A program made the translations under genes and the position numbers. A DNA stretch of 35,491 nucleotides from a virus. This document shows, one piece after another, positions 188-33,863 of the stretch (position 1 is its first letter; the number at the start of each line of letters is the position of its first letter). The notes under the pieces were generated by a model. That model saw only the letters and a list, made by a program, of their open reading frames with translations. It did not search any database and was not told the DNA's origin. The DNA lies in IMG/VR virus record IMGVR_UViG_3300032116_000686, positions 1 to 35,491 of that record; one strand, 5' to 3'.

Positions 188-523
188 ATGAAAAACCAAG
201 AAAACCAAAAGGCTCAAGGGTCTTCATTTAATCACTTTGCAGGATACAGCATTTTCGGTCTCGGTATGCTGGTGCTTGGGTGCTTCTTTATGCACGCCAC
301 GATCGCCAACGGTTTTATGACACCGCCAACACCACTTGATGCACAGACATTTCAGTGTCAAGAGTTAGGGCGACGCTCTAAAGGCTTCCCTGAAGCTTAT
401 GAGAACCTTCGTAAAGGTGGATGTGGAATGCTTAAGCCCTATCGTGATGCTTTCTCTGATGCTCCCCCAGTGCCTTTGAAGCTTGAAACAACGGAGGCAT
501 CGAACACGCAGGGAAAGCCGTAG
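188..523 (+). CDS. single-pass membrane protein; zero-frame product of a putative -1 frameshift gene
   Basis: This is a 111-residue product read from ATG 188, behind AGAAGGAA. Residues 1-19 are polar with two Lys. Residues about 20-41 form one transmembrane helix, so the N-terminus is predicted in the cytoplasm and the remainder in the periplasm. The outside part has two Cys (57 and 79) that could form a disulfide. The last codons are GGA AAG CCG TAG, preceded by G. Together these give G GGA AAG, the heptamer used by phage lambda gpG/gpGT for -1 frameshifting. A fraction of ribosomes is therefore expected to continue into the transglycosylase-like frame. The family is unknown to me. A gene next to a peptidoglycan-cleaving enzyme and small membrane proteins suggests a role in lysis or envelope attack. 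Confidence 0.75.
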   Translation: MKNQENQKAQGSSFNHFAGYSIFGLGMLVLGCFFMHATIANGFMTPPTPLDAQTFQCQELGRRSKGFPEAYENLRKGGCGMLKPYRDAFSDAPPVPLKLETTEASNTQGKP

Positions 524-536
524 CCCACCATAGGGC
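491..536 (+). promoter_or_regulatory. -1 programmed ribosomal frameshift signal (GGGAAAG)
   Basis: Slippery heptamer G_GGA_AAG at 511-517, phased exactly for tandem -1 slippage in the frame of the gene at 188. The zero-frame stop TAG is one codon later (521-523). An internal Shine-Dalgarno-like ACGGAGG lies at 491-497, about 13 bases upstream, as in dnaX-type stimulators. A small GCCC/GGGC hairpin (523-526 with 533-536) follows. The -1 frame is open from 487 onward and has no ATG, GTG or TTG until 709. Confidence 0.75.
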
Positions 537-1071
537 GAAACCAACTAAGCCGAAACCAAGTGCAGGTTATGAGGCTTCACCAGGCTATCGACTCGTAAGA
601 GCCAAGCTGGTTTGGAAGCTAGGCGAAGCAGAAGGCACACGCCTAGCAAAGGTTGCTTACGATAGGGTCTTATGGCATCAAACCCAAAAGACAAAAAGCA
701 CAATTACCTTGACGATGTGGTACACGATTGTCAATCACAAAGAGAATGCCCAGTGGCGATTTGATGCCACAAATCCAAACTACAAAAGGGATAAAAAGGG
801 CAATTTCTTTCGTGATAAAAAAGGTCGCAAGATTATTGAGTCTTGGGATTGTGGAATCGGTCAACGCAATATGCCTTACTGTACTGCTGAATCCTTTGAT
901 CCTGAAAAGGGCATCATTGCCAGCATCGACACCTTAGCATATAAGAACCTTAAGTTTGCCAATAAAGACATTTGGATGACCTTCAAGCGTTACAACGGAG
1001 GAGGACCCCAAGCGACCGAATACGCCAATGGGTGTATGAGATTTTATAACCAGTATATGAAAGGAGCTTAA
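517..1071 (+). CDS. lytic-transglycosylase-like domain, -1 frame extension of the gene at 188 (fusion of about 294 aa)
   Basis: After slippage at 511-517 the -1 frame adds 184 residues to the first 110 of the gene at 188. The extension has a His/Lys/Pro-rich linker (fusion residues about 113-127) and a helical segment. It then looks like an SLT (GH23-type) fold: VNHKEN with a candidate catalytic Glu at about residue 186, then SWDCGIGQRN resembling the GLxQ motif region, then a C-terminal YNGG...YA...YNQYM helix pair. With the upstream transmembrane helix the product would be a membrane-tethered, periplasmic peptidoglycan-cleaving enzyme. The only usual start in this frame is TTG 709, which has no good ribosome-binding site and would drop the first helices. 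An internal start or a sequencing error in GGGAAA are the alternatives. Confidence 0.68.
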   Translation, partial: AVAHHRAKPTKPKPSAGYEASPGYRLVRAKLVWKLGEAEGTRLAKVAYDRVLWHQTQKTKSTITLTMWYTIVNHKENAQWRFDATNPNYKRDKKGNFFRDKKGRKIIESWDCGIGQRNMPYCTAESFDPEKGIIASIDTLAYKNLKFANKDIWMTFKRYNGGGPQATEYANGCMRFYNQYMKGA

Positions 1072-4612: not shown

Positions 4613-4660
4613 ACGCACCCGACCTCTCGAAGAAGTAGAAAAGGGTGCGTTTTTGTTTTA
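4613..4660. terminator. bidirectional rho-independent terminator between convergent blocks
   Basis: Perfect 8-bp stem ACGCACCC (4613-4620) with GGGTGCGT (4643-4650), then TTTTGTTTT on the plus strand. On the minus strand an equivalent T-rich stretch lies at 4606-4597. It sits exactly between the rightward gene cluster and the leftward endolysin gene, whose stop is inside the T-run region. Confidence 0.85.
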
Positions 4661-5134
4661 ATAAGGCACATCCCGATCCGCTCCCTTGTCGTTGTGGACG
4701 AAGCCCTTTGCACGGTTGATGCCTAAGCCACCGACCCAAAACTTCTTATAGAGCAAGTATTCGTAAGAAGTGGGGAGGTCGCCATTTGTAAACTGCCAGT
4801 CAACCGCAAGCCCTGTCATGTGCCAAGACTTGGAAGCTCCACCAATACGCTCGTTGTGAGAAGGTACACGAAGCCACGAGGTGACACGCATAGGGCGTTT
4901 CCAATACGCCCTAGCTTTTTCCATTTGTAACGCCATGAGGTAGGCGTTGTCAAGCATCGCCCTTGTCGTCTGTTGCCACTCACTAGGGAACCCTTCTCTA
5001 TCGGGGCGAATCCCTACGAACACTTCACCCCATTTAAAGTTGGTTGTAATGTTTCGATTCACCAGTAGGTCGTAGTCCTTTGACTTGATGAGCGAAAAGG
5101 CGGATGCGACGGCAAGTATATTTTTAGCGTTCAT
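4658..5134 (-). CDS. endolysin, peptidase M15A family (158 aa)
   Basis: Zinc peptidase that cuts the peptide stems of peptidoglycan. The M15A signature is complete: N-x-x-x-GGA-x-x-S-x-H-x-x-G-x-A-x-D (NERIGGASKSWHMTGLAVD), then GGLGIN and FVHNDKG. His105, Asp112 and His147 are the expected zinc ligands. The start is ATG 5134, preceded by GGAGACAAGGA and overlapping the upstream TGA. A 14-residue longer reading has no ribosome-binding site. The short Lys plus hydrophobic start (residues 3-16) could be a weak signal or SAR-like segment, otherwise a holin is needed. Single-domain endolysins of this size are usual in phages of Gram-negative bacteria. Confidence 0.88.
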   Translation of the reverse strand: MNAKNILAVASAFSLIKSKDYDLLVNRNITTNFKWGEVFVGIRPDREGFPSEWQQTTRAMLDNAYLMALQMEKARAYWKRPMRVTSWLRVPSHNERIGGASKSWHMTGLAVDWQFTNGDLPTSYEYLLYKKFWVGGLGINRAKGFVHNDKGADRDVPY

Positions 5135-5307
5135 TCCTTGTCTCCAGTTTCTTTTTCCCAGTCCACATTTCGCCACCGCTTTATGTTTGATTCGGCATCG
5201 ATGAAGTTTGAAAAATTACCCATGAAATGATCGACGGTATTCTGTCTAAAGAAAGCTCCGTCGTTGTAAAGCTCAACTTGGAATGTGATAATGCTTGTGT
5301 CTTCCAT
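5131..5307 (-). CDS. hypothetical protein (58 aa)
   Basis: Read from ATG 5307, preceded by AGAGG at a good distance. A further in-frame ATG upstream (5340) lacks a ribosome-binding site. The product is short, soluble and acidic at its end. Its TGA overlaps the endolysin start (ATGA), so it probably couples endolysin translation. Family not recognised. Confidence 0.6.
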   Translation of the reverse strand: MEDTSIITFQVELYNDGAFFRQNTVDHFMGNFSNFIDAESNIKRWRNVDWEKETGDKE

Positions 5308-5373
5308 TATGATTTTACCTCTAAAATTATATTCAAGCATGGCTTCATTGTTATTTTTGGCGTGAAATTACAT

Positions 5374-5535
5374 TTAATACTTGTGAACCGTGTTACCCTC
5401 AATCCAATAATGAGGGCGTGGGGTGCGTTGAACTACTCGATTTTCTCGAGTGGTTGCTTGTATTGGTATCAATCCACCGATGAAAAACAAGGTGATTGAG
5501 ATGCCAAGCATAACGAACATGGGGGTGAAGTTCAT
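5374..5535 (-). CDS. small membrane protein (53 aa), possible holin or spanin-like
   Basis: ATG 5535 behind the strong TAGGAGGAC. Residues about 6-25 are hydrophobic (MFVMLGISITLFFIGGLIPI), followed by a basic, soluble tail of 28 residues ending WIEGNTVHKY. This is one helix at the N-terminus with the C-terminal part presumably outside. Its position just upstream of the endolysin supports a lysis role. It lacks a coiled coil, so it is not a typical i-spanin. Confidence 0.65.
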   Translation of the reverse strand: MNFTPMFVMLGISITLFFIGGLIPIQATTRENRVVQRTPRPHYWIEGNTVHKY

Positions 5536-5545
5536 AGTGTCCTCC

Positions 5546-5574
5546 TAAAGAAAAGGGGCTATGGGGAAGCCCCT
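5546..5574 (-). terminator. rho-independent terminator or attenuator on the minus strand
   Basis: Reading leftward, AGGGGCT (5574-5568) pairs with AGCCCCT (5560-5554) over a 7-base loop, and is followed by TTTTCTTT (5553-5546). It lies directly before the ribosome-binding site of the gene at 5535, so it would reduce downstream lysis-gene transcription rather than end the operon. Confidence 0.65.
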
Positions 5575-5610
5575 GCTTTCTCTCTATAATCACATATCAC
5601 ACATATCACA

Positions 5611-5751
5611 CTAAAACTTTAAAAGCTTCAACGCATTGACGACGGCTTTTAAAGCAACATCGTCAAAAGGATTTTTCGTACTTTTCACGATGTCATCCCC
5701 AAACTCTTCAAGGGCGTATAACGCCAATTTTAAAACAGCGTTCCAAAACAT
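5611..5751 (-). CDS. small amphipathic protein (46 aa)
   Basis: ATG 5751 behind TATTGGAGGATTGATT. The product is nearly all helix with alternating hydrophobic and charged residues, including a central acidic cluster and Lys-rich end. It has no clear transmembrane segment. Unknown family. It lies between the coiled-coil membrane protein and the terminator at 5574. Confidence 0.6.
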   Translation of the reverse strand: MFWNAVLKLALYALEEFGDDIVKSTKNPFDDVALKAVVNALKLLKF

Positions 5752-5823
5752 AATCAATCCTCCAATAGGTTTTCTAAACTAACACAATCCTTATGGTGCA
5801 ACAACATAAATCGCATAAAGGCT

Positions 5824-6108
5824 TTAAGCTTTTTCATTTTTCCCCTTTTTTGCTTTTGGTATTGTATCCTCTTTTAGTGACTTAAACAAGCCTTTTAAGT
5901 AGCCAATCTCTTCTTTCAGGGAAAATAGATCCTTGCGTAACACAACATTTTCAGCTTGGCACTTCTCGTTACTTTCTTTTAAATCACGCTTTACTTCTGA
6001 AAGCAAGTCGTTTTGTCGCTTCCATAAAACAGTTACGACTGTACCCATAATGGTTAAAGCACTAATAAATAAAGTCTGGTCAGCACTGGTCACATGAATA
6101 GCCCCCAT
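5824..6108 (-). CDS. membrane-anchored coiled-coil protein, Rz/i-spanin-like (94 aa)
   Basis: Residues 8-29 form one transmembrane helix. Residues 32-80 form a long charged coiled coil (NDLLSEVKRDLKESNEKC...), and the tail is Lys-rich. A single N-terminal helix with a periplasmic coiled coil is the layout of inner-membrane spanins, which link to an outer-membrane partner at lysis. No outer-membrane lipoprotein partner is evident, so the spanin role is inference. The ATG abuts the stop of the next upstream gene. Confidence 0.7.
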   Translation of the reverse strand: MGAIHVTSADQTLFISALTIMGTVVTVLWKRQNDLLSEVKRDLKESNEKCQAENVVLRKDLFSLKEEIGYLKGLFKSLKEDTIPKAKKGKNEKA

Positions 6109-6440: not shown

Positions 6441-7241
6441 CTAAAAGGCTGTTGAAATAGCAGTCATTAAGTTAGTAACGGCGGTTTCTAGTTTAGCTAG
6501 ATCGATTGATGTTCCTAGTGAGTAGAAGGCGATGCGTTCCGCCGTTAATAATTGTGGACTTCCTGCATTGTTCGACCCAAAAATAAAGTAATTAAGATTC
6601 ATACTGCTATTGCTGTTTTGGGTAATAACAACATTGGCACTTTCGGACCGAATGGTAAAGTTAGCAGAACTTGCTCGTGTCAAACCGCAAAATGGGGATG
6701 TTCTTGTTGCACGAACTGTCCCTTGAATAGCCCCATTACGACTTCTGACTCGTGTATCTGTTTCTAGTTGTGTATCCCCACTATTAAGGAATCCAGTCCC
6801 TAAAATAAACCCACCCCCTGACCCAATAAGCCTTGTCGCATACCCTGAAACGTGATAATTATTAAGTGGGTCGGCTGAATCTAGCCTATTTGAATTAAGA
6901 TATTTAGTCGTCGCATTGCCCAACAAACCAGTCTTTCTATTATAATCCCCACCAACAAAGTTGACGTTTGTAGGGGCTGTACCCACCAAAGGAACTAAAG
7001 CACCACTTAGTGTTCTAGCCCCTGCAAGGATACAAGAGGCGTTAATAGCCGTCCAAATACCTTGTGCTTTACAATACACAACAAAGGAATTGATAGCGTC
7101 TTTTACACCTGTTTCAAGTGAGGCACTATCCGCTGTTTCAACGGCTGTAATGTAGGCTTGAGCGTCTGTGTCGTAGCCTCCACCACCACCGCCTCCGCCT
7201 GAAAAGCTAAAGCTTTGTGTAAATGAAAAGTTAAACGCCAT
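6441..7241 (-). CDS. virion-associated, lectin-like or receptor-binding-type protein with poly-Gly hinge (266 aa)
   Basis: ATG 7241 behind GAGGGAGAG. The first 14 residues (MAFNFSFTQSFSFS) are a short aromatic/Ser peptide, followed by eight Gly. Then comes a domain with DAQAYITAVETAD, VVYCKAQGIW, ASCILAGARTLSGALVPLVG and DYNRKTGLLGNATTKYLN. These motifs recur in many marine and other phage tail or decoration proteins that carry a concanavalin-like beta sandwich. The likely role is binding the host surface, with the N-terminal peptide fixing it to the virion. It stands apart from the other tail genes and is expressed from its own promoter (7304-7276). Confidence 0.7.
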   Translation of the reverse strand: MAFNFSFTQSFSFSGGGGGGGGYDTDAQAYITAVETADSASLETGVKDAINSFVVYCKAQGIWTAINASCILAGARTLSGALVPLVGTAPTNVNFVGGDYNRKTGLLGNATTKYLNSNRLDSADPLNNYHVSGYATRLIGSGGGFILGTGFLNSGDTQLETDTRVRSRNGAIQGTVRATRTSPFCGLTRASSANFTIRSESANVVITQNSNSSMNLNYFIFGSNNAGSPQLLTAERIAFYSLGTSIDLAKLETAVTNLMTAISTAF

Positions 7242-15400: not shown

Positions 15401-15973
15401 CACACGGTCAATTACATCGCCGTGTGCTACGCCGTTCATAATGTTTGACTTAAAGCGTCCACTATTAACCAAATCACCATACTTTGCTTGCATTAAAGCA
15501 TAATTGAAGTTGAGTGTGCCTTCACCTGTAAACACGCCCTTCCACTCTTCCGCTAAGCCAAGTGGGTTTAAGTCTTGAATATCCTTAGCGATTTCATGGA
15601 TTCTATCAGGGAGTCTGCCTGCACCTGTGAGGGGTTCCGCTGTTCCGAATGTCATTATCGGATCAATACGATTGCCTCGTGTTGTGGCAAGAATAGCAAG
15701 CACAAAGTCTTCTTTCGACACGTTTTTTCCTGTTATACGGTTTAGTTCAGCTCGTGAAGATTCTAAGAAGCCAGCGGAGATGTTCGCCGTCTTGGCATCT
15801 GCTTTTACTTTGGCAATACCGTTAATGGCTAGGTTTTCCATTAAGCCGTGAAGGCTCTTATTGTCACCAACGGCATTTTTATAGGCTTGCACGATTCGGT
15901 CAAGTCTAACAATATCCGCTTCTGTTGCGAAGCCGTACTTGGCTGGTGTTGCGTCTAAACTACACTTGCTCAT
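12467..15973 (-). CDS. large internal virion (ejection) protein, gp16-like by position (1168 aa)
   Basis: The start is ATG 15973, overlapping the stop of the upstream gene. The protein is very long, mostly helical and Lys/Glu-rich, with few Cys. A hydrophobic stretch lies at about residues 965-990 (ILGASKIASKYAQYSVVLTAGGALL), as expected for ejection proteins that cross the host envelope. I see no transglycosylase motif, unlike T7 gp16. Size, order (last of the internal proteins, before the fibre) and the neighbours support the role, not sequence motifs. Confidence 0.72.
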   Translation of the reverse strand: MSKCSLDATPAKYGFATEADIVRLDRIVQAYKNAVGDNKSLHGLMENLAINGIAKVKADAKTANISAGFLESSRAELNRITGKNVSKEDFVLAILATTRGNRIDPIMTFGTAEPLTGAGRLPDRIHEIAKDIQDLNPLGLAEEWKGVFTGEGTLNFNYALMQAKYGDLVNSGRFKSNIMNGVAHGDVIDRVFLESIHTTWKDLEKHLAPNEKKKYKALTTEEISKIVDKSLSENDMIDTSDAINKEILTSMTTGWYRQLNTYLVKAQELGLDIEWNKNYVMPNIHSKADIVFKSVVEKMQGHINSLKEGETVDPNITKKMIDQSIDAMAVKFMKYGDHQKTLGDDFFKLNGQKQNLDKLILTRYKYIVKAMFDSELIPAIKDEAGQIDVIGINLPSITRKFTQRSFYFKDADNYFAYLMENNTRFKSAYSEGGEAQGSILANILKHDTENISKDFSILQLFGSNPALTFRKYSTDQLDSPVSRELFTRFVQNQQGGLSLKNYIFPANMNAIKDVPYETQKSFMNMIKNPILDTTDFNKAFGDAFYEATWTGKALNASDFEHSWKGLITQFPKELISPSLFLTNTVLDTLQRSYKLGEIMANSMTLVEGMKNTSHIFAMSFRYMAGGIARQDMATRFKPVIAKVLNIDEKDVTPENFVSTVQLLGAMKEYAMVYDMQNAIARSENTTNATLRRIQKFNKSPLVSALGGIPMEHVTFFQKMATNLRLHQVVKDTIDLKQKMNPVMETHLQTFRLDRNMVSVLDDIFDNALSTKKLGIMDLEALQQGVNRTITEAEFKERIGSKYENPELKAKALQDLEEGIDLELKPYYEQQRINYNAKAKAEEGIVFNTLEEFMLNLPDKLKNNQQKLRDIKTTKYINKKAFAFGQFVNNISDEVSYIFKDSGSMSQYMKSASPKDKIATATLFHLKRFLTNSLEVEARQIERIQKTYGKGILGASKIASKYAQYSVVLTAGGALLNTINGLFNNEHEGFLAVGETLQDDSLNDEEKLARVMGEVTQSWMLGLPVGTHLRAVMDTMSRDSSLPETMANLLFAPLASTGLRGFGTTLSFVSGEFKDTSDMTYAQEQRHDESQKEKRLSELNLLLRQLPAYNLPLLKVMMNYGGEPLIREYAQMAQDGEKYQEVVDDLKEMTPLEQYAETTRNYRGKPLVE

Positions 15974-18900
15974 AAATCGAATCCTTCACAACTTAAAATC
16001 TGTTTAAACATTCTGTTCATTTCAGGGTCGCCTAAAAAGCTAGCCACTTCTTTATCAAACCCTTCTTCTTTCAGGTCTCTTAAAAGCGTCAATAGTTCAG
16101 GGGGGGCTTGACCGTCTCGGATCAAATCATTTAATCCTTCATCTATGACTCTAGGATCATCATAGTAGGCATTCTTTTTTGAAGCAAGGGCTAGCTTTTT
16201 TATTGTTTCTAATTTTTTATCAGGGGCTTTTACTTCGGGCTTAGGCTCTACCTTTGCCTTGTATGGTGTGTCTATGCCTTTGTCAGTTAATTTTATAGGA
16301 GTATCTAGGCTATCCGCCAGCTCTTTTACAAGCTGTGCTGTCGTTTTATCTTCTACCGAAAATAAAGTCGTTTGGCGTGGGTCACCCGACTCATCTACTT
16401 TGCTATAATAGTCCTTTATAAAAACCTCTAATTTTTTACTGCTGTTTTTGTAATTGTCAAAAACTTGCATTAAGTAATTTTGAGTTAAGGTTAATCCGTC
16501 ATCAAACAAGCTTCCTTGTGCGTAGTATTCATCAAGCTTTGTATTTTTTGCTTTTAAATCAAGAAGCTTTGATGTGACAACACCAATATCCCCCGATATG
16601 TCTAATGGCTTTCTAATGCCTTGCTCAATCATCCCACGCATAGAAACAATAGTGGGGGATGCCCCAACGATAGCTTTACCTAAGTTTTTGCTAGACTCTT
16701 CTACAGAATCTAACATATTACTGATAGCACGTTGTCCTTCAGGGGCATCAATCGCCTTTGCTACAACTGCATTTTCAATACGCTTTAACCCAACGGCTGT
16801 TAACTGCCCTTCGGCGGTGACGATTGCCCCTCTCTCGTTAGCAGGAACAACTTCGTTTACAAAATCTCGTATAAACTCTATATTTATATCTCCAGCCGTA
16901 TTAGGGTCAAGCACTTGTAGAATATCAGAACTTAGCTTGCTTGCATCTGTCTTTGCCTGTTCTAAAACACTCATTGAAGCCAAGTTTGATTCATTCGCTT
17001 TTTTAGTAAAAGCAACTCGATCTGTTCCTGATTGATTAACTCGCACTAAAACAGGTTGCTTTAATCCATTGACTGCTTCAGGTGATATGCCGTACTTGCT
17101 TGCGTTATTCACCAAGTAGTTTTTATACTCGGTTGCTTTTTGTGGAACGCTATCATAAGCCACCTGTAAGGCAAGCGTTCTTCCGTTACCGCTTTCTACT
17201 ACCATGTCACTTCCCACAATAGGGCTACCGTCACTAATGGTAGAAGACTCTGCTAAGCGTTCAGGAATAAGCTTGTTTGCAATGGTTGTTATCTGCTCAC
17301 GGCTTGCCTCTCGACTTCTATCTCGTGGTTGAAGTTCTGACGGATAGGCAGGGTTTGCCTTTAGGTCTCTTGTGTTGCTTGGAATCAACTCATCCATTTC
17401 AACAACACGATATTCTAAATCGTAAGCGTTGCCGTCATTATCAAAAGCACGAACTACATATCCCTCTAACGGTGGGGTTTCTAGTCTGCTTTGTATTTCT
17501 TTTTTTACATCTATATCAGATTCTATTGCTTCATCCAAGCTTTCTTTTTTCGCTACGGCTCCATGCTTACCGTCCAGCTTTTCAGCCTGCCTTACGCTGT
17601 AAGTGCTGGCTTCCTCATCCTCAATCATCCGCCCTACAGTGCTAGGCTTAATATCCACATTTGCTAAAGGGTCAGGCTTTACAATATCACCATAAAAGGA
17701 TTCTGTCTTCTTAACGCCTAACGCATCGCCTGCTTGCTCTAGGTTTATCTTTTCGGGGTCAATGGAACTAGATGCCCCAAGTAGAAGCTTCTGTTTCGCT
17801 ACGTCGGGGTTAGAGTGCTTACTAGCCACAAGCTCGATGTTTTGTGTAAGCTCCTGTGTGCTGGTGCTTAATTCGCCCAAGTGTTCGCCTGTTTCTTTTA
17901 AGTTTATCGTTTTGTTTGGATCAACAGGGGCATCTAAAATCTGCTCAATCGTAACAGGCTTGTTCCCTTTAATGGCAAACATGGTTTGAAAGTCTGCCAT
18001 GTTATACTCGCCTGCTTTTTCGCTCTGCTCCATGCCTCGCATAATAGAACGAATGGCAAGCTCCCTGTCTTGGTACTGTAAAGCAAGCTTGTTTATTTGA
18101 TTGCCTATCTTATTGACCTTACCGCCCTTGTCAATCAACGCCTGCCCCTTGCTGGCTAGGCTCTCATAGTCTGTAAGCTTTGGTGCTTGTGATTCCTTGC
18201 CTGTGACGGTTGGCTCCTCAACACGCACACTGGCATTGTCTACAACATCCCCTAGCGTCTCATCGGCTGATTTGATAATAGGCTTTGAGAAGTCCATATC
18301 CAAATTGTCTGAACGGCTGACGACATCAAGCATACCGCCCAAGTCTTCCATGACGACATCGGAATAAACGCCTTCAAGCTCCTTAGCACTTCTCTCTAAG
18401 TTCGTGCCTTCAAGCGTATTTCTAGCAAAGGACGCATTACTCGCTTCCGCTTCGGTTTTTACTTCATCCAATACGTCTGATAACATCTTCACTGGATGAA
18501 TTGACTCGTCAACCCTTGAGCCTTTGTAAATATCAATAACTTTGCCAACGCCTTTTTCTAAACCGATGCCTGCAAAGCGAACGGCTGGGTTTGCAACTAA
18601 ACCAACGCCAAACTGCGTAACTCCCATTTCAATAGCGTTCTTGTAGCTTGCCCCTTGCTTGAGTTCGTTTACGGTCGTCAACGCAGAGCCTACACCGTTC
18701 TCAATCAACGTAGAGTGAGCTAGCGTTTTAATAACCTGTGAGCCTTTGCTTCCTGTTTTGTAGACATCACTACTGACATCTAAGACACGTCTCGCTGTTG
18801 TGGCGACCTTTTGTAGCTTAGAGGCAAGGCTTACACTGTGAGCAAGCGTTACTGCTCCAGCACCAGCTAAGCTCAAGCCTCCAGTCGCAGGAGCAAGGAG

Positions 18901-19434
18901 TGCCGCTGCCCCCCACACAATCGCTTCTTCTGCTAACGCACTAGGCACGTTTGCTAAAATCGTGGGAGCTGAAAATCTTACTTTGTTCCAGTTTTCATTC
19001 CCTGTAAAGTTACTAGCGATTCTTGCATCTTCAACCTGTTGTTTGTAATCGTCCGCAATAATTTTGGCTCGTGCTTCTGACATATCACGACTAAAGTTAA
19101 ACCCAACAGCATCACCGTATCGCTTCTGTAACTCTTCTTTCTTAATAATCGGAGCGTTACCGTCCCCACCTTGAAGCAATAAAGGGGCATACTTAAACTT
19201 ACTTTCTAGCCAGCTCGTCGCTTGGTTCTGTCTAAATACTGGCGTAAACCAATCGCCCTCGAACTTAGGAGCAATGGCTTCTTCGGGAGCTGGTGGCGGA
19301 ACATAATCTTGCGGATTGTCCGTGTAGTCTTGAGCGTATTGCTCCGCTGTTTGACCCATGCGATAAGGCTTCAAGCCTCCGTATGTGTCGTATTCTACAC
19401 GACGTTGGATTGCTTTCAAATCAATATCTATCAT
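15970..19434 (-). CDS. large ejection protein with embedded DdrB-ParB-like domain (1154 aa)
   Basis: ATG 19434 overlaps the preceding stop. Residues 1-160 are an N-terminal virion-type part, followed by an Ala/Gly-rich hydrophobic segment at about 165-200. Residues about 665-960 match the DdrB-ParB domain of polyvalent proteins: YDLEYRVVEMDELIPS, QPRDRSREAS, VVESGNGRTLALQVAY, PVLVRV, then KANESNLASMSVLEQA. This domain is related to ParB-type DNA-binding or nuclease folds and occurs in phage proteins thought to be injected with DNA. The role is probably a virion protein that enters the cell and acts on DNA or counters defence; the effector part is inferred. Confidence 0.78.
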   Translation of the reverse strand: MIDIDLKAIQRRVEYDTYGGLKPYRMGQTAEQYAQDYTDNPQDYVPPPAPEEAIAPKFEGDWFTPVFRQNQATSWLESKFKYAPLLLQGGDGNAPIIKKEELQKRYGDAVGFNFSRDMSEARAKIIADDYKQQVEDARIASNFTGNENWNKVRFSAPTILANVPSALAEEAIVWGAAALLAPATGGLSLAGAGAVTLAHSVSLASKLQKVATTARRVLDVSSDVYKTGSKGSQVIKTLAHSTLIENGVGSALTTVNELKQGASYKNAIEMGVTQFGVGLVANPAVRFAGIGLEKGVGKVIDIYKGSRVDESIHPVKMLSDVLDEVKTEAEASNASFARNTLEGTNLERSAKELEGVYSDVVMEDLGGMLDVVSRSDNLDMDFSKPIIKSADETLGDVVDNASVRVEEPTVTGKESQAPKLTDYESLASKGQALIDKGGKVNKIGNQINKLALQYQDRELAIRSIMRGMEQSEKAGEYNMADFQTMFAIKGNKPVTIEQILDAPVDPNKTINLKETGEHLGELSTSTQELTQNIELVASKHSNPDVAKQKLLLGASSSIDPEKINLEQAGDALGVKKTESFYGDIVKPDPLANVDIKPSTVGRMIEDEEASTYSVRQAEKLDGKHGAVAKKESLDEAIESDIDVKKEIQSRLETPPLEGYVVRAFDNDGNAYDLEYRVVEMDELIPSNTRDLKANPAYPSELQPRDRSREASREQITTIANKLIPERLAESSTISDGSPIVGSDMVVESGNGRTLALQVAYDSVPQKATEYKNYLVNNASKYGISPEAVNGLKQPVLVRVNQSGTDRVAFTKKANESNLASMSVLEQAKTDASKLSSDILQVLDPNTAGDINIEFIRDFVNEVVPANERGAIVTAEGQLTAVGLKRIENAVVAKAIDAPEGQRAISNMLDSVEESSKNLGKAIVGASPTIVSMRGMIEQGIRKPLDISGDIGVVTSKLLDLKAKNTKLDEYYAQGSLFDDGLTLTQNYLMQVFDNYKNSSKKLEVFIKDYYSKVDESGDPRQTTLFSVEDKTTAQLVKELADSLDTPIKLTDKGIDTPYKAKVEPKPEVKAPDKKLETIKKLALASKKNAYYDDPRVIDEGLNDLIRDGQAPPELLTLLRDLKEEGFDKEVASFLGDPEMNRMFKQILSCEGFDL

Positions 19435-27689: not shown

Positions 27690-27999
27690 TATAAACGTCC
27701 TCCTCATTTACCCACACTTGGGCTTGACTACTATTAAAAAATAAACCAATATCTATGTTTAGAATCCCAAGAATCCCTGCGATAACAGACTGCTCGCCAG
27801 CACTAAACGCATAGTCAGTGGCGGTCTTTCCTGTAACTGGAGGGTCAAAAAAGGTGCTACGATCCAGCAAGTCCATTAACACAAACTTACCGTCTTGTGT
27901 TCCAAATACTTTTTTGTACGTTTCAATCGTTTTAATCTTGGCTGCTTCAGGCGTTAGTTCTGCACGAAGTTTGTTAAGTTGACTTTTAAACGGATTCAT
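27679..27999 (-). CDS. Bbp19-like small structural protein (106 aa)
   Basis: ATG 27999 overlaps the upstream stop. The segment YKKVFGTQDGKFVLMDLL followed by DRSTFFDPP and FSAGEQSVIAGILGIL matches the Bbp19 family pattern (FgTxxGkxVLxdLl ... GxrxvixxIl), found near portal and capsid genes of podoviruses such as BPP-1. It overlaps the scaffold start by 11 bases. Role unknown. Confidence 0.72.
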   Translation of the reverse strand: MNPFKSQLNKLRAELTPEAAKIKTIETYKKVFGTQDGKFVLMDLLDRSTFFDPPVTGKTATDYAFSAGEQSVIAGILGILNIDIGLFFNSSQAQVWVNEEDVYNVD

Positions 28000-32395: not shown

Positions 32396-32913
32396 ATGCA
32401 AGGTTTTAGCGTTTTAGTCCTGATTGCATGGTAAACGTCTGATAATCTACATTATGTTCTGGGGTGTAAAGGGTTGCTATGCCTGCGTTTCTTCCTTCAC
32501 GCTATCAAGCGTCTGCCTTCACGTGGCAGCAATGCACACCTAGCGATGATGCAAGGGCTATAAGCCTTCATGCAAGGGCATACAGGGTATTGAACAAGGA
32601 TATAAGGGTTATGAGACTTTATTAATTATTTTATTATATATATATATATATGTATATATAAGGGGAATAAAGGAAAAATGTAAAACTCCCTCCAGTCATA
32701 TCAAGGCTTCCCCCCCTTGCATGTCCCTTCTCTGCCTGTTTTGCTGATCCCTGCGTGTGCCTCTACCCTGTGCTGTGAGACGTTCTCCCGAGTTGTCAAG
32801 CACTTGCAACGTCATACAATTGCGTCCCCCTTGCATTGCCCTTGCGTTAAAAGGTGTAGACTTGTGGCTAGTGTGGGTTTGTGTATTGCTATACATTTTC
32901 CAAACCCTTGCGT
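32396..32913. other. putative replication origin: opposed ATGCAAGGG iterons around an AT-rich core
   Basis: No protein-coding gene is credible here. ATGCAAGG(G/T) occurs at 32396, 32549-32557 and 32570-32578 on the plus strand. The inverse CCCTTGC(A/G)T occurs at 32714-32722, 32828-32836, 32839-32847 and 32905-32913. Pairs are spaced 21 and 11 bases, whole helical turns. Between the two groups is an AT-only tract at about 32622-32660. Short hairpins lie at 32499-32512, 32513-32529 and 32556-32566. The pattern is that of an iteron origin, but no initiator is proven. Confidence 0.5.
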
Positions 32914-33358: not shown

Positions 33359-33368
33359 GTTATTACAC

Positions 33369-33392
33369 GCTAGGGGTCTAAACGCCCCTAGC
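33369..33392. repeat. intergenic hairpin, first copy of a 36-bp direct repeat
   Basis: GCTAGGGG and CCCCTAGC form a perfect 8-bp stem with an 8-base loop. The surrounding 36 bases (33367-33402) recur at 33812-33847 with two differences, both sparing the stem. No T-run follows. Confidence 0.8.
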
Positions 33393-33414
33393 ACCTATTA
33401 AAGAAAAGGAGTTT

Positions 33415-33804: not shown

Positions 33805-33813
33805 CCCCCCAAC

Positions 33814-33837
33814 GCTAGGGGTTTAAACGCCCCTAGC
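33814..33837. repeat. intergenic hairpin, second copy of the 36-bp direct repeat
   Basis: Same 8-bp GCTAGGGG/CCCCTAGC stem, loop differing by one base from the copy at 33369. It lies 10 bases after the stop of the preceding gene and 27 before the next ATG. Confidence 0.8.
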
Positions 33838-33863
33838 ACCCATTAAAAAAGGATTTAAACACC

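Follow-up and report, generated by a model that had tools for sequence, protein, structure and literature searches.

A conserved slippery cassette predicted to fuse a hydrophobic export module to a peptidoglycan-cleaving domain by −1 ribosomal frameshifting in phages

The gene at positions 188–1071 of a 35.5-kb IMG/VR virus record (35,491 nt, end repeats absent; this whole stretch of DNA is referred to here as the window) is probably decoded by programmed −1 ribosomal frameshifting, with a fusion of an export module to an enzyme as the minority product; the probability of this reading, which draws on comparative sequence analysis, is put at about 0.83. In the proposed mechanism, most ribosomes would stop at 521–523 and release a 111-aa protein in which an N-terminal hydrophobic signal or anchor is joined to a small cysteine-pair domain lying outside the cytoplasm. 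The others, a minority, would slip at the heptamer G_GGA_AAG, aided by an upstream GGRGG block and a short GC hairpin, to yield a 294-aa protein that would take a lysozyme-superfamily-like domain across the membrane.

Results

Layout of the gene and its decoding signals

The zero-frame gene (188–523, plus strand, as are all elements of this gene) starts at an ATG that is preceded by a Shine-Dalgarno-like GAAGGA (174–179), and its 111-aa product carries a hydrophobic segment at residues 22–40 (codons 251–307) and a cysteine pair, C57 and C79. Near its end lies the slippery heptamer G_GGA_AAG (511–517), which is in phase (codons CAG GGA AAG CCG TAG) and is followed by the zero-frame stop TAG (521–523). 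The sequence ACGGAGG (491–497) lies 13 nt ahead of the heptamer, and the GGAGG within it (493–497) is a possible internal stimulator that would act by anti-Shine-Dalgarno pairing. In the −1 frame, which is open over 487–1071, the earliest ATG, GTG or TTG is a TTG at 709 that lacks a good Shine-Dalgarno sequence. A slip would give a product of 294 aa, of which residues 111–294 are encoded in the −1 frame (517–1071) and comprise a linker followed by the lysozyme-like domain (approximately 556–1068). An earlier note on this DNA, made from the letters alone, had proposed a frameshift on the basis of the in-phase heptamer with the nearby stop, the internal ACGGAGG, the −1 frame open without a start codon before 709, and products of 111 and 294 aa from one start; all of these are present as it described, the two products as reading frames. 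The present analysis adds a downstream hairpin, the conservation of the arrangement in other phages, and a separate endolysin-like gene in the window.

Heptamers of the form X_XXY_YYZ (Y = A or T) at most six codons from the stop were found in 3 of the 89 window ORFs of at least 60 aa, and only the ORF at 188–523 opens a long −1 extension (185 codons, versus 45 and 13 for the other two). By codon preference, learnt from the long genes of the window, most bins up to 487 score better in the zero frame and most bins from 488 onwards in the −1 frame; the switch falls in the 488–547 bin. Taken simply as a 7-mer, GGGAAAG shows no enrichment in the window (2 copies versus 4.9 expected); it is its phase, place and conservation that matter, rather than its abundance. 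Transcriptional slippage was considered as well and rejected, since the GGGAAA run is too short.

Relatives and the conserved cassette

Homology searches with the −1 domain of the window alone returned nothing from IMG/VR, GTDB genomes, INPHARED phages or plasmids. Relatives were reached by a scan for the short motif W-D-C-G-x-G-Q, which yielded two true homologues (L170 and L173), and by a scan for the cassette around the heptamer, which yielded a third relative (L180). Further hits (L169, L171, L172, L174, L177–179, L181 and L182) were chance pattern matches and were rejected as relatives. The cassette DNA had no match among named phages, and only four contigs, including the window, are known to carry it.

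A 25-nt block, GGRGGCATCGAACACGCAGGGAAAG, is common to all four contigs and identical apart from R, and G_GGA_AAG stands in the zero-frame phase in each of them. The three relatives have the same layout, namely, a short zero-frame ORF whose product begins with a hydrophobic segment, the 25-nt block, a stop 0–1 codons past the heptamer (TAA in the relatives), a hairpin, and an open −1 frame that encodes a domain of peptidoglycan-cleaving type. The immediate stop contexts differ among the contigs (CCG TAG, TAA, and CCC TAA). The earlier note had pointed to homologous phages as the place to look, where single uninterrupted ORFs would speak for a sequencing error; instead, the frame break is kept in all four contigs, as are the heptamer and the open −1 frame. 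Three of the four contigs closely share DNA in this region, which limits the independent support that they provide.

The −1 frames of L170 and L173 encode homologues of the lysozyme-like domain of the window (58% and 65% identical to it, respectively). L180 combines almost the zero-frame protein of L170 with the cassette, stop and hairpin found in L173, while its −1 frame encodes a GH108 muramidase (Glyco_hydro_108, Pfam 5.2e-20) that is non-homologous to the window domain. Proteins similar to this muramidase occur in 143 phage records, and many of the best matches are annotated as lysozyme or endolysin. In pairwise comparisons, sequence similarity appears or is lost at either side of the cassette; judged by these alignments, the catalytic domain is replaced in L180 by an unrelated GH108 muramidase exactly at the cassette joint. 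The presence of a GH108 domain in the same place gives independent support to a wall-cutting role for the window domain.

The portal protein of the window is approximately 30% identical to portals of HTVC010P-type pelagiphages. G018 (with Terminase_3 and a tape measure) and G019 (with a Mu-type portal) gave no match to the window portal, and phages that differ in virion type thus seem to have the cassette in common.

Hairpin and codon-level constraint

The GC hairpin of the window (GCCC-ACCATA-GGGC, 523–536) begins 5 nt past the heptamer and has a folding energy of −7.5 kcal/mol (z −2.65); in the other contigs it begins 6 nt past the heptamer, and over all contigs, the window included, the energies range from −7.5 to −8.9 kcal/mol. 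The stem GCCC/GGGC is kept and the loops differ (ACCATA, ACGGAA, and TGTAAG). Since the stem of the window is in a different codon phase from that of the others, protein coding does not explain it, and such a stem at that place arises in about 0.1–0.2% of shuffled sequences. The hairpin is short (a stem of only 4–5 bp); the 83-nt fold past the heptamer is unremarkable as a whole (z −0.04), so that only the short hairpin stands out, and Rfam gave no match for the region. The GGRGG block is found 13 nt ahead of the heptamer in all four contigs, and, together with the hairpin, may be regarded as a candidate stimulator of slippage.

All four contigs spell the A-S-N-T-Q-G-K of the cassette with the same codons. 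With 59% codon identity at conserved residues elsewhere, the chance of seven identical codons out of seven is approximately 2.5% for one pair of the window and a relative, which gives modest support to a constraint at the RNA level. The invariance of the 25-nt block may in part stem from recombination instead of constraint.

Selection on both reading frames

The −1 domain shows dN/dS values of 0.20–0.22 among the window, L170 and L173, at dS values of up to about 1.4 and with no disruption, versus about 0.7 or higher when these bases are translated in the other frames. For the zero-frame N-terminal (anchor) part, the comparison of L170 with L180 gave a dN/dS of 0.12. Purifying selection on both frames makes it very unlikely that a sequencing error or a decaying gene lies behind the pattern, and the low values in both parts argue for working proteins rather than decay products.

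The two protein modules

In the −1 domain, an invariant Glu (E186 of the fusion, 742–744, in NH[KR]EN) aligns with the catalytic Glu of c-type lysozymes, and an invariant Asp (D221, 847–849, in WDCG[IL]GQ.N) aligns with the lysozyme motif D.G..QIN; both residues would on this alignment be the counterparts of those in lysozymes. The Glu and the W-D-C-G-x-G-Q-x-N motif are invariant in the three homologues (window, L170, and L173). A profile search of the PDB had c-type lysozymes as its top four matches at weak E-values (0.0057–0.06), and a search with L173 alone again returned c-type lysozymes (best E 0.0055, likewise weak). Pfam, PHROGs and NCBIfam gave no SLT/GH23 or other family match for the window domain, and AlphaFold models were poor, whether built from one sequence or from three (pLDDT 51), with no match in the PDB. 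These data hint at a lysozyme-superfamily-like domain, which may be a hydrolase or a lytic transglycosylase. The description of the domain as lytic transglycosylase-like in the earlier note is supported only in part: the weak matches point to lysozymes, and the three family databases lack an SLT/GH23 match.

The zero-frame products of the relatives also have a hydrophobic N-terminus and two cysteines; counting the window, the two are 22–28 residues apart. The N-terminus is possibly a membrane anchor or a cleaved signal peptide. The proposal of a membrane anchor fused to an enzyme is thus borne out to the extent that a conserved −1 frameshift layout places a peptidoglycan-cleaving domain behind a hydrophobic module for membrane insertion or export; a stable tether and a cleaved signal peptide are both possible.

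Separate lysis genes and gene context

A gene for an M15 peptidase (4658–5176, minus strand; likely start ATG 5134; Pfam M15_3, 2.5e-14) lies apart from the frameshift gene, on the strand of the structural genes, as it does in G018. An M15 peptidase gene is also found in G019, and L180 has an amidase. Near it, the window encodes a small membrane protein (5824–6108, minus strand) that is about 70% identical in G018 and L180 and, from its place, is possibly holin- or spanin-like. The DNA at 4800–5800, from part of the M15 gene up to the gene of the small membrane protein, is 73–80% conserved with G018 and G019. Judging from strand and Pfam match, the M15 peptidase is probably the canonical main endolysin of the window, and, given such a separate gene on that strand, the main late endolysin is probably not the frameshift product. 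The idea that it could be the only endolysin of the phage was dropped when the M15 gene was found, and a simple description of it as the lysis enzyme is unlikely to be right. The frameshift gene is on the strand opposite to the M15 and structural genes. In G018 it follows AAA_24 and DnaC/IstB-like recombination/replication genes on the same strand, and it may therefore be expressed earlier; this timing, and the role that it may imply, are read from gene place only.

Elsewhere in the window, a protein encoded at 6441–7241 (minus strand) is 45–48% identical to proteins of unknown function of the cyanophages KBS-S-2A and S-CBS4 (phrog_17104, 7e-77), which contrasts with the pelagiphage-like portal and terminase of the same window. 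A large virion-region protein (15970–19434, minus strand) contains a ddrB-like ParB superfamily domain (Pfam 5.5e-37).

Assembly quality and near-identical contigs

The late half of the window is partly covered by four near-identical contigs, found by portal and terminase searches. They show zero net indels relative to the late genes of the window, except for a 126-bp gap in the terminase gene of L093, and the assembly hence looks sound at the single-base level in the late half. These contigs end at approximately 32.6–33.2 kb, and the region 188–1071 lies outside their coverage (0 of 4 reach it). The 126 bases that are absent from L093 (30513–30638) are kept by the other near-identical contigs. 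Three of the contigs (L011, L012, and L093) end at 32614–32680, where an inverted repeat is located (32634–32661), which points to a break in the assembly or a variable site. In otherwise almost invariant surroundings, two of the contigs have in common a cluster of four substitutions that spans 49 bases (27865–27913), and a 36-bp direct repeat (33367–33402 and 33812–33847, 94% identical) lies on either side of a 129-aa ORF.

Discussion

Programmed frameshifting has to be weighed against three other explanations of the same frame break. The loss of one base from GGGAAA in an ordinary fused gene, by sequencing or assembly error, would produce an identical pattern in a single genome; the relatives effectively refute this explanation, since the frame breaks at one and the same heptamer in four contigs that come from different samples and differ in stop context; in addition, the near-identical contigs are free of net indels in the late genes except for the gap in L093. 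It is also unlikely that the region holds two genes, with the −1 domain translated from its own internal start (TTG 709, ATG 715, or an upstream start in L170 and L180) or by reinitiation. Reinitiation past a nearby stop is common in phage operons as a matter of general knowledge, and L170 and L180 do have an upstream in-frame ATG in the −1 frame. This ATG lacks a clear Shine-Dalgarno sequence, however, and in the window and L173 the −1 frame is devoid of start codons both near the stop and from the cassette to well within the domain. Several neighbouring operon genes have clear ribosome-binding sites of the AAGGAG type, whereas the −1 frame has none. Furthermore, a start at TTG 709 would drop the conserved segment SEGYEAS.GYRLV and begin about a dozen residues ahead of the proposed catalytic Glu, and two separate genes would leave the conserved heptamer, stop and hairpin unexplained.

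That the 25-nt block is kept as a recombination joint for enzyme-domain swaps, with frameshifting secondary or weak, fits the exchange of anchors and catalytic domains exactly at its two sides and the absence of clear DNA similarity between the window and the other contigs upstream of the block. A pure joint, however, need not keep an in-phase heptamer, a stop and a downstream hairpin, and the −1 domains are under selection and without starts of their own, which makes a joint with little or no frameshifting very improbable. A frameshift signal and a recombination joint can both hold.

Under programmed frameshifting, the reading preferred here, the slippage itself and its rate, the membrane topology and the enzymatic activity are what we infer from the alignments and motifs. 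The most likely purpose would be dose control of an exported, potentially lethal enzyme, i.e., the wall-cutting form would be held at a small fixed fraction of a catalytically empty partner and serve as an accessory to the separate late endolysin. Tentatively, and with considerable doubt, the cassette might be a portable frameshift joint at which phages of differing virion types exchange anchor and muramidase modules, with a ratio that keeps the enzyme harmless before lysis and an abundant zero-frame product that restrains it as an antiholin restrains a holin; the antagonist role of the zero-frame product is speculation.

If frameshifting is indeed conserved here and sets the dose of an exported wall enzyme, lysis or wall remodelling would be added to the functions controlled by recoding, and a recoding signal would double as a joint for the exchange of non-homologous enzyme domains. 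Since the −1 part can be without a start codon, enzymes of this kind are split or overlooked by standard gene callers, and similar lysins may hide in other genomes. In the open-licence literature, we found no account of a muralytic phage enzyme that carries an N-terminal anchor and arises through a conserved −1 frameshift, which is weak evidence of absence.

The programmed frameshifts known from tailed phages mostly concern tail chaperones and variants of capsid or tail-tube proteins, and the heptamer of lambda is the same G_GGA_AAG as in the window. Lambda gpG/gpGT and other tail-assembly chaperones share with the mechanism proposed for the window a −1 slip late in the first frame that gives two products from one start, with a common N-terminus (Xu et al. 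2004, cited in PMC6316719; reviewed in PMC5009743), and differ in that they are tail chaperones and not exported or membrane-linked wall enzymes; the window adds the GGRGG block and the hairpin. G_GGA_AAG has been described as highly shift-prone in E. coli (PMC5009743). In the capsid gene of phage Privateer, GGGAAAG is a predicted frameshift signal, and mass spectrometry revealed the longer, minor form of the capsid protein (PMC7881722); the signal is the same, whereas the protein is structural and its extension is not an enzyme. The E. coli dnaX gene resembles the window in that an internal Shine-Dalgarno sequence and a stem-loop flank a heptamer ending in AAG (PMC5009743). The shifted product is the shorter one in E. 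coli dnaX and would be the longer one in the window. The Shine-Dalgarno stimulator of the dnaX frameshift was reportedly described by Larsen in 1994.

To our knowledge, neither an N-terminal anchor module nor a domain swap is on record for the Lactococcus phage lysin of Shearman (1994), a work considered here through its title and citations. According to these, that lysin is, like the product predicted for the window, a phage wall enzyme encoded across two overlapping frames, and it has been cited as a frameshifted lysin (PMC10885494). SAR endolysins, e.g., R of phage 21 (PMC6139136), likewise carry a muralytic domain on an N-terminal hydrophobic segment and are exported via the host translocon; they are encoded by single-frame genes and have no excess of a catalytically empty partner, unlike the arrangement predicted for the window.
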